From Pseudomonadota bacterium (GTDB lineage: Bacteria > Desulfobacterota > Desulfovibrionia > Desulfovibrionales > Desulfomicrobiaceae), in assembly GCA_030529235.1 (NCBI GenBank), contig JAUMXF010000011.1:1-39199 (forward strand): 39,199 bases of DNA, written 5' to 3'. Positions 1,566 through 27,683 of the stretch are shown here, one piece after another. Position numbers and translations under genes: made by a program. Position 1 is the stretch's first letter. Every line of letters starts with the position of its first letter. The notes under the pieces are model-generated. The model saw only the letters and a program-made list of their open reading frames with translations. It searched no databases and had not been told where the DNA came from.

Positions 1566-2189
1566 TCACTTTTCCGGTGGTGGAACGAATTCCTGAAACA
1601 CGAGGGGCAGTTCCTCCGGAACCTGAGCGCGGGTCCGCGCCAGATCGGCTGCGGACAACGCGGGGACCTTGGTGCACCGGAAGTATACCCGCCCCGGATG
1701 AGCCAGAGCCAGAGCAAAAACTTCCCGCAGACTCTGCCGGGCCGAAGCCTCGGCCATGCCCCCGGTCAGTTCCGGATAGCGGTCCCAGGGACCTTTCACG
1801 TCCACGGCCAGGGTCTGCGCCAGGTCCGAAACCAGCAGCCGCTCCAGCACATCCGGAGCCGAGCCGTTGGAATCCACCTTGACCGGCAGGCCGATGGTCT
1901 TCAGGTCCGCCAGCAGGTCTTCCAGATCCGGAATACAGGTAGGCTCTCCCCCGGACAGCACGATGCCGTCCAGCCAGAAACGCCGCCTGCGCATATCTTC
2001 CAGAAGGGATTTGCGGCCCAGAACCGGCAGGGTCTGCCATGTCCAGGCCAGCCCGCCATTGTGACAGGTGGGGCAACGCAGGTTGCACCCACCCGTGAAC
2101 AGGACGCAAGATACCCTGCCCGGCCAGTCGCAAAGGCTCACAGGCGCGATGCCGCGCACGCGATCCCACGCGCAATTCGTTTCCGTCAT
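1566..2189 (-). CDS. nrdG: Anaerobic ribonucleotide reductase activating enzyme (radical SAM)
   Basis: Uses S-adenosylmethionine and a [4Fe-4S] cluster to install the glycyl radical on NrdD. The 207-residue protein has the radical-SAM cysteines C35-x3-C39-x2-C42 and a GGEPT motif (SAM binding) in the middle. The N-terminal stretch RGIAPVSLCDWPGRVS is typical of NrdG-like activases. The ATG at 2189 was chosen because family similarity starts right after it; a GTG at 2231 would add 14 residues of no recognisable character, and neither start has a strong Shine-Dalgarno site. It is the first gene of the nrdG-nrdD operon, about 76 bases downstream of a cobalamin riboswitch. Family and context are clear; the exact start is less so. 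Confidence 0.9.
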   Translation of the reverse strand: MTETNCAWDRVRGIAPVSLCDWPGRVSCVLFTGGCNLRCPTCHNGGLAWTWQTLPVLGRKSLLEDMRRRRFWLDGIVLSGGEPTCIPDLEDLLADLKTIGLPVKVDSNGSAPDVLERLLVSDLAQTLAVDVKGPWDRYPELTGGMAEASARQSLREVFALALAHPGRVYFRCTKVPALSAADLARTRAQVPEELPLVFQEFVPPPEK

Positions 2190-2265: not shown

Positions 2266-2404
2266 CTTCAGGCCGGTATTCTGACTTCCCCGTTCCGCAT
2301 ACCGCCTTCCCGCCCGCAGGCAGTGGCATCGTGGTACGCGGCATTTGCAGAGGTTACAGCGGCGGGACCGTCCCGGACTCACACCGGGTTCCCTGCGCCT
2401 GAAG
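2266..2404 (-). promoter_or_regulatory. Cobalamin (B12) riboswitch upstream of nrdG-nrdD
   Basis: Read on the minus strand, the element contains the hallmarks of the AdoCbl-type aptamer: a core with GGGAACCCGGTG and CGGGACGGTCCCGC, then CTGTAACC, GCCACTG, GGGAAGGCGG, and the B12 box (plus 2271-2289) with AGTC and ACCGGCC. The ends close with a perfect 8-bp P1 stem, plus 2266-2273 (CTTCAGGC) against 2397-2404 (GCCTGAAG). It lies between a sigma70-like promoter and the nrdG start. Downstream there is a CCGCA/TGCGG hairpin without a U-run, so control is more likely at translation than by termination, which is inference. Known principle: B12 riboswitches repress B12-independent isozymes when cobalamin is plentiful. 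Confidence 0.93.
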
Positions 2405-2425: not shown

Positions 2426-2455
2426 CTTATAGGCAGCCTTGCCCGGCGGTATCAA
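2426..2455 (-). promoter_or_regulatory. Sigma70-type promoter for nrdG-nrdD
   Basis: On the minus strand, TTGATA (plus 2450-2455) and TATAAG (plus 2426-2431) are separated by 18 bases. Transcription would begin about 15 bases ahead of the riboswitch P1 stem, which is the expected geometry. Inferred from sequence only. Confidence 0.6.
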
Positions 2456-2653: not shown

Positions 2654-3559
2654 ATGAAAAAACTGACTGGACTGCTGGTGGCCGGGCTCTGCCTGGCCGG
2701 AGCCGGGCAACTTTTTGCAAAGGACAAAATGCCCGGCGCGGTCGATTGCCGAGCAGGATACGAATACGCTCTCAAGGGTGATTTCGAAGTCAAAGGCAGA
2801 CAGGGCATCGCCACGGACGGCAAATATTATTACGTCAGCGGCAGCAAATCCCTCTACAAATACGGCAAGGACGGCAAGCTGCTGCTCAGCAACGAAAATC
2901 CCTTTGAAGGCTATGCCATTCCGTCCAACCATATCGGCGACATCGACGTATTCGAAGGAGAGCTCTTCATCAGCGCCGAGAATTTCATGGACGGCGTGGG
3001 CAAGGATATCCAGATCGCCATCCATGACGCCGAAACCCTGAAGTTCAAACGGACCTTCAAGTTCGATCCCTCCTCCGGACAGCAGGAGGTATCGGGCATC
3101 TGCGTGGACAGGGACAAGCGCACGGTCTGGATGTGCTCATGGGTGGGCGAGGAGAGCGGCCGCTATCTGTACGAATACAGCCTGGACAGCGGAAAATATC
3201 TGCGCAAGGTGCATATATTCCCTGTGCCGCAATGGGTCCAGGGCGTGTATTATCACAAGGGTGCGCTGTATGTGACGGCCGATGACGGAGATGCCGATTT
3301 TGACGAGCCGGACCACATGTACAGAGTGAATGTGTCCGATCAGACCAGCGCCCAGGTCACTCTGGAAAAGACCTTCACCGAAGTGAAGCGGCAGGGAGAG
3401 ATAGAAGGCCTCAGCATGGACCCGGAAACAGGGGAACTGCTGGTGCTTTTCAACCGCGGCGCGCGCATCGTGCTGGGCATGGGCAAGGGCTTCTATCCCG
3501 GCTATGACAAGGAAATCCACGAAGTCTACCGCTACAGGATGACTCCGGCCAAGCAGTAG
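2654..3559 (+). CDS. Secreted protein of unknown function, beta-propeller-like
   Basis: I do not recognise a named family. The 301-residue product starts with a clear Sec signal peptide (MKK, hydrophobic stretch, likely cleavage after A22), so it should be periplasmic or extracellular. The mature part has repeated short blocks of the kind GIATDGKYYYVSG, DIDVFEGELFISA, GVYYHKGALYVTA and GLSMDPETGELLVLF. Their spacing resembles the blades of SMP-30/NHL- or YncE-like beta-propellers. There is no CxxCH heme site, and C13 in the signal peptide is not in a lipobox. The start ATG has AGGGGGAACAG before it. It is a single-gene unit, divergent from nrdG and closed by a strong terminator. Substrate and role are unknown. 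Confidence 0.75.
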   Translation: MKKLTGLLVAGLCLAGAGQLFAKDKMPGAVDCRAGYEYALKGDFEVKGRQGIATDGKYYYVSGSKSLYKYGKDGKLLLSNENPFEGYAIPSNHIGDIDVFEGELFISAENFMDGVGKDIQIAIHDAETLKFKRTFKFDPSSGQQEVSGICVDRDKRTVWMCSWVGEESGRYLYEYSLDSGKYLRKVHIFPVPQWVQGVYYHKGALYVTADDGDADFDEPDHMYRVNVSDQTSAQVTLEKTFTEVKRQGEIEGLSMDPETGELLVLFNRGARIVLGMGKGFYPGYDKEIHEVYRYRMTPAKQ

Positions 3560-26903: not shown

Positions 26904-27683
26904 GTGGAAATTCTTCCGAAGCTCTCCCGAAAACGCGGGAACCAAGCGGACACGCACCTTACTCCCGGCCGCAAACCCGTCCTCGAATGCATCACGGACC
27001 GGCCGCACATGCTGGATACGGTTTTTCTGGCCGAGGACACTCCCGGCCTGGGAGAAATCATCCAGGCCTGCAGACAACACGGCGTCCGCTTCCGGAAAAT
27101 CCCCCGCCGGGAACTGGACCGCATGTTTCAGGGCACGCACCAGGGCGTTGTCGCCCGCCTCCGGGGCAGAGAATTCATGGAGATAGGACCCTTTCTTGCC
27201 CAGGCCGCCCGCAGCCCACTGCCGCTTGTTCTGGCTCTCGATCAGGTTCAGGACCCCGGCAACGCGGGGACTCTGGCCCGCACTCTTCTCGCCCTAGGCG
27301 GCGGCGGACTCCTCTTTCCCCGGGACCGCGCCGCCTTTCTGGGACAAGCCGCGGCCAAAGCCGCCGCCGGAGCCCTGGACCGGCTGCCCCTGTGCCAGGT
27401 CGTCAATCTGGCCAGAGCGCTGGATGCCTGCCGCGACAGCGGGTTCTCCGTCTACGGCACCGGTCTTGGCCCGCAGACGCGGCCTCTCTTTGGTACGGCG
27501 TTTTCTTTTCCCGCGGTTCTTGTCCTCGGAAACGAAGACAAAGGCATGCGTCCCAATGTGGGCAAACGCTGTCAGACAATACTGTCCATCCCCATGCACG
27601 CGGGGTGGGATTCTCTGAATGTGGCCCAGGCCGGAGCCATGATCATGGGGGAAATGCTGCGCCAGCACGGCGGCGGAATCTGA
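26904..27683 (+). CDS. TrmH/SpoU-family RNA 2'-O-methyltransferase
   Basis: Methylates a ribose 2'-OH of rRNA or tRNA with SAM; RlmB-like (23S rRNA) by similarity, target not certain. 259 residues. An N-terminal substrate-binding domain is followed by the three SPOUT motifs: DQVQDPGNAGTLART (N120 conserved), LVLGNEDKGM, and IPMHAGWDSLNVAQAGAMI. GTG start at 26904, with only a modest AAAGG upstream. Convergent with fliQ; it shares no operon with the flagellar genes. Divergent from mltD across 105 bases. Confidence 0.88.
   Translation: MEILPKLSRKRGNQADTHLTPGRKPVLECITDRPHMLDTVFLAEDTPGLGEIIQACRQHGVRFRKIPRRELDRMFQGTHQGVVARLRGREFMEIGPFLAQAARSPLPLVLALDQVQDPGNAGTLARTLLALGGGGLLFPRDRAAFLGQAAAKAAAGALDRLPLCQVVNLARALDACRDSGFSVYGTGLGPQTRPLFGTAFSFPAVLVLGNEDKGMRPNVGKRCQTILSIPMHAGWDSLNVAQAGAMIMGEMLRQHGGGI

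Follow-up and report, generated by a model that had tools for sequence, protein, structure and literature searches.

Why would the operon of a B12-independent ribonucleotide reductase (RNR) be placed behind a cobalamin riboswitch? This question is raised by the leader of nrdG-nrdD, which encodes a class III RNR and its activase, in the genome of a sulfate-reducing bacterium of the family Desulfomicrobiaceae. The preliminary description of the locus held that turning off such an enzyme when B12 is plentiful is sensible only in a cell with a B12-dependent class II enzyme, NrdJ, as well. Here "the window" means the whole stretch of DNA that was analysed (39,199 nucleotides); it is the whole of contig C125 of a 2.32-Mb, 164-contig, 99.2%-complete genome. 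We examined the leader itself, its relatives in the family and in the order, and the position that nrdJ would occupy in this genome.

A cobalamin riboswitch upstream of nrdG-nrdD

The element in front of nrdG-nrdD is confirmed as a cobalamin riboswitch. A cmscan search of the whole window against Rfam gave a single match at the gathering threshold, RF00174 (Cobalamin), with E = 1.1e-19 and with the model covered at full length (1-189, not truncated). P1 is formed by CUUCAGGC (2404-2397) and GCCUGAAG (2273-2266) in 8/8 contiguous Watson-Crick pairs. The RF00174 alignment contains the conserved core: GGGAA, CUGUAA and the B12 box near the 3' side of P1. The element thus belongs to the RF00174 class both by its full-model match above the gathering score and by its closed P1 and core. 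The preliminary description, which named a complete aptamer with a perfect P1 and proposed a covariance search with the Rfam cobalamin model, is borne out by this match; its limits, 2266-2404, run exactly from P1 to P1, and the strand, which it did not give, is minus. The riboswitch is probably of the adenosylcobalamin type, with a corrinoid as the presumed ligand.

The sigma-70-like promoter upstream reads TTGATA-18-TATAAG and would start the transcript at about 2419. A generic promoter scan did not pick it up, since the last base of its -10 is G. Its position is kept across the genus, where several sister species have TTGATC-17-TAATAC. The promoter, the riboswitch and the genes follow one another in the order given by the preliminary description, all on one strand, and a riboswitch so placed in the nrdDG leader is the arrangement of a B12-repressed class III operon.

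Table 1. Coordinates of the features around the nrdG-nrdD leader in the window
Feature	Position	Strand	Basis
Inverted repeat TTATCCACA-N19-TGTGGAAAA	2464..2500	-	just 5' of the -35; genus leaders compared
Sigma-70-like promoter	2426..2455	-	sequence and genus conservation
Cobalamin riboswitch aptamer, RF00174	2254..2417	-	84.9 bits (gathering score 31.5 bits); fold computed
P13-like hairpin after P1	2222..2263	-	conservation, covariation, fold
nrdG (NrdG2, class III RNR activase)	1566..2189	-	TIGR02495, 137.9 bits (cut-off 131.15)
nrdD (class III RNR), 510 codons	1..1530	-	NF006126, 752 bits (cut-off 548); PF13597 and ATP-cone

The nrdD gene is cut off by the contig start (position 1). For nrdG we prefer the conserved ATG at 2189 to the GTG at 2231, which lies inside the P13-like hairpin and is not kept: several sisters have GCG there, and non-triplet indels occur upstream of the ATG. 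A short leader ORF beginning at the AUG in the loop of this hairpin was also rejected, as its frame varies among relatives. A NrdG search of the genome contigs gave only five distant loci (L053-L057), with RF00174 in none of them.

The inverted repeat next to the promoter may have a DnaA-box-like function. In the genome under study both its arms fit the DnaA-box pattern TTWTNCACA. TGTGGAAAA was found in 14/15 genus leaders and the dyad in 12/15 (L039, L088, L082 and L080 among the loci), its conserved form before the nrdG promoter being TCCACA...TGTGGAAAA. In five genus relatives the region before nrdJ was examined as well and lacked this repeat. The intergenic region is common to nrdG and a divergent gene on the plus strand (2654-3559), whose 301-aa product begins with a signal-peptide-like segment and has no match in Pfam or NCBIfam.

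The leader between P1 and nrdG

The P13-like hairpin pairs 2244-2250 with 2231-2237 around the loop CGCGGA (2238-2243); AAC/GUU and flanking pairs extend the stem. Its consensus over 2263-2222, CUCUUAAC-CUCYGCA-CGCGGA-UGCRGGG-GUUGRGA, is nearly invariant within the genus. Across genera 99.3% of cells are paired, and 4/13 pairs have changed on both sides; slid registers, taken as a control, pair in no more than 48% of cells. The hairpin folds 3.4 sd better than shuffles (z = -3.4). Its position and loop suggest P13/L13. Four G-C pairs are possible between L13 (CGCGGA) and L5 (GGUCCCGCC), GCGG of the former with CCGC of the latter, as a putative kissing contact of the two loops.

A terminator scan of the minus strand from 1500 to 2700, including the region from P1 to nrdG, found no intrinsic terminator. 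There is a lone run of five U at 2199-2195 with no recognised stem ahead of it, and the earlier remark that a U-run terminator is lacking after P1 was right in substance. The leader thus does not have the intrinsic terminator before the gene that defines a transcription-terminating cobalamin riboswitch, and no textbook output step is visible. Direct masking of the Shine-Dalgarno sequence by P13 was rejected, the 3' arm of the hairpin stopping about 32 nt short of the nrdG AUG. A switch in which UGAAGC of the P1 3' strand would instead pair with GCUUCA close to the nrdG start was rejected as well: in a sister with 95% identity the partner reads GCUGCA and the helix is broken, and the pairing does not occur elsewhere.

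Output at translation initiation seems most likely, and the main rival is Rho-dependent termination, which would leave the switch as it is and change only the last step. The missing intrinsic terminator speaks for Rho, and so does P13, the only conserved structure here, which at its distance from the start codon cannot cover it directly. However, it is chiefly translational control for which the P13 hairpins of cobalamin riboswitches are known. We regard Rho-dependent output as the less probable and translational output as the better reading.

Conservation of the riboswitch and the predicted nrdJ partner

RF00174 was found in 22/22 Desulfomicrobiaceae genomes searched, before nrdG-nrdD in 19 of them and directly before an nrdD in three (G010, G016 and G017). 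In G010 (L041:1-420, G010:C4) the riboswitch is followed by a strong hairpin with T7, i.e., an intrinsic terminator, and then by a divergent nrdD; this gene is 50% identical to nrdD of the window, and the arrangement is unlike that of the genus mates. Another locus, L094 (G004:C23:24772-24972, 27521-27633), has two cobalamin riboswitches on the same strand 2.5 kb apart, the second of which matches only positions 47-167, an inner part of the model.

The order sample comprises 61 genomes. Among them, 59 have a match to nrdD, and in 45 of these RF00174 lies within 2 kb upstream of the gene on the same strand; the 45 are a lower bound, as the first-pass filters were strict and G009 was scored negative only through a contig break. 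Under permissive filters, seven other negatives and the nrdD contig of G009 were still without RF00174. Thus, for about one in four of the sampled order members with an nrdD, no riboswitch was found at that gene. Most of these have nrdJ, and therefore the link between the riboswitch and nrdJ is not obligatory.

No class I/II reductase was found in the 99.2%-complete assembly of the genome under study, whether the query was PF02867, TIGR02504 or a concatenate of IlvD, FtsX, FtsE, NrdJ and Mog; at first sight this speaks against the predicted nrdJ. The close sister G005 is 95.4% identical over 11.6 kb, and its nrdJ (C1:983530-985764) lies inside the interval 983168-986455. Contig C92 of our genome matches the G005 flank to its own last base (983168), and contig C6 matches from its own second base (986455). 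The 3.3 kb between them, which in G005 include all of nrdJ, are an assembly gap in our genome; the absence of nrdJ from the assembly is therefore uninformative. PF02867 found nrdJ in 20/22 family genomes and in every other genus member searched. We conclude from this synteny that nrdJ is probably present behind the C92-C6 gap.

Two relatives from the order sample have lost nrdJ. G059 has its nrdJ site on an unbroken contig, where it spans about 1.9 kb, against 5.3 kb including nrdJ in G057; in G054 the two nrdJ flanks share a contig, with one flank in inverted orientation, and nrdJ is missing. A permissive recheck found no cobalamin riboswitch before nrdD in either genome, while 11/11 other sampled genomes of the genus of G059 have one. 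This joint absence is suggestive of a link between nrdJ and the riboswitch, though there are two cases, and a rough hypergeometric count gives about 0.055 for the pattern (58 genomes, our own left out).

G021 shows another picture. Between mog and ftsE it has a 72-codon in-frame nrdJ remnant (L121, G021:C3:47733-47955) that keeps the N-terminal 34 residues of NrdJ (alignment score 75; best shuffled score 48) and its C-terminal 10 residues (alignment score 50; best shuffled score 43), and PF02867 has no match in this 85%-complete genome. Its nrdDG riboswitch is retained (37.2 bits, core intact). The claim that the riboswitch makes sense only if nrdJ is present thus stands as a tendency, seen in the lack of both in G054 and G059, but fails as a rule, since the 85%-complete G021 keeps the riboswitch beside a mere remnant of nrdJ. 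Together, the three genomes lend themselves to studying whether enzyme or regulator is lost first.

The state of G021 is also an argument for a true loss in our genome, where the riboswitch would then act on the sole RNR and would have to be leaky or decaying, or B12 would merely trim expression. Such a state exists in the same family with the riboswitch kept, and no class I/II reductase was found in a 99.2%-complete assembly. On the other hand, the nrdJ position is flanked by the very termini of C92 and C6, as is typical of a gap in an assembly; nrdJ is present in the sister at 95% identity; and the riboswitch is undecayed here (84.9 bits, perfect P1). After the synteny comparison with G005 we judge a true loss very unlikely. 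That nrdJ is gone as it seemingly is in G021, with B12 limiting the synthesis of DNA if the switch does not leak, appears if anything a shade less likely still. The presence of nrdJ behind the gap remains our reading.

Proposed regulation and known systems

Two further cobalamin riboswitches were found in our genome, before metE (C57; PF01717/PF08267) and before cbiK (C62; PF06180). NrdDG and MetE are both B12-independent isozymes under B12 riboswitches, as would be expected of OFF-switches, and the metE, cbiK and nrdD riboswitches fit a coherent B12-economy set. A MetH-like gene on C69 (L104:1082-3474) matches TIGR02082 below the cut-off. It is interrupted, with two frames split near L104:1500, as though a short stretch were missing, either through a fault of the assembly or as a genuine lesion.

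In the model that we propose, the B12 coenzyme would bind and so fold the aptamer together with the P13-like hairpin that follows P1, and the folded leader would reduce how much of the B12-independent class III enzyme NrdDG is expressed. With B12 available, the cell would turn to the B12-dependent class II NrdJ; under B12 shortage, nrdG-nrdD would be expressed. We hold this model as a whole, an AdoCbl-type OFF-switch in the nrdG-nrdD leader with NrdJ as the B12-dependent alternative, to be very probable. Repression by B12 is the direction that we infer, as it matches the published reading and the metE and cbiK riboswitches and because a relative, G010, carries a platform of the terminator type ahead of its nrdD. 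The unusual expression platform of our leader could instead point to an ON-switch or to a ligand other than B12. But the aptamer is a standard RF00174 with a conserved core, metE, cbiK and nrdD are classical B12-repressed targets, and the terminator platform of G010 occurs within the family, so that we consider this alternative highly improbable and retain the OFF-switch.

The same logic is known from the Streptomyces nrdABS riboswitch, where repression of a B12-independent reductase by B12 beside a class II enzyme has been shown experimentally; the Streptomyces operon is of class Ia and nrdG-nrdD of class III. In the actinobacterium Propionibacterium acnes, cobalamin riboswitches precede nrdDG and nrdAB (PMC3848588). 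As in our case, the riboswitches stand before B12-independent reductases, and the P. acnes genome has nrdJ, as ours probably does; but nrdAB transcripts of P. acnes end early, whereas the leader described here has no intrinsic terminator.

The closest known systems are the B12-elements before nrdDG in Desulfovibrio vulgaris, a related sulfate reducer, and in Desulfuromonas (Rodionov et al. 2004, PMC545781). The same work found NrdJ in all deltaproteobacteria studied and proposed the same B12 repression of nrdDG. Both the arrangement and its explanation were thus already published in 2004, and the Desulfomicrobiaceae case is a further instance, alike in riboswitch family, target operon and the proposed logic of the NrdJ partner. 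It differs in that the nrdJ site falls in an assembly gap, and a near-complete assembly can thereby mislead about a gene that the regulatory logic needs. It also differs in that the promoter, P13 and family-wide conservation are documented. The case confirms the published isozyme-switching regulon and extends it to Desulfomicrobiaceae.
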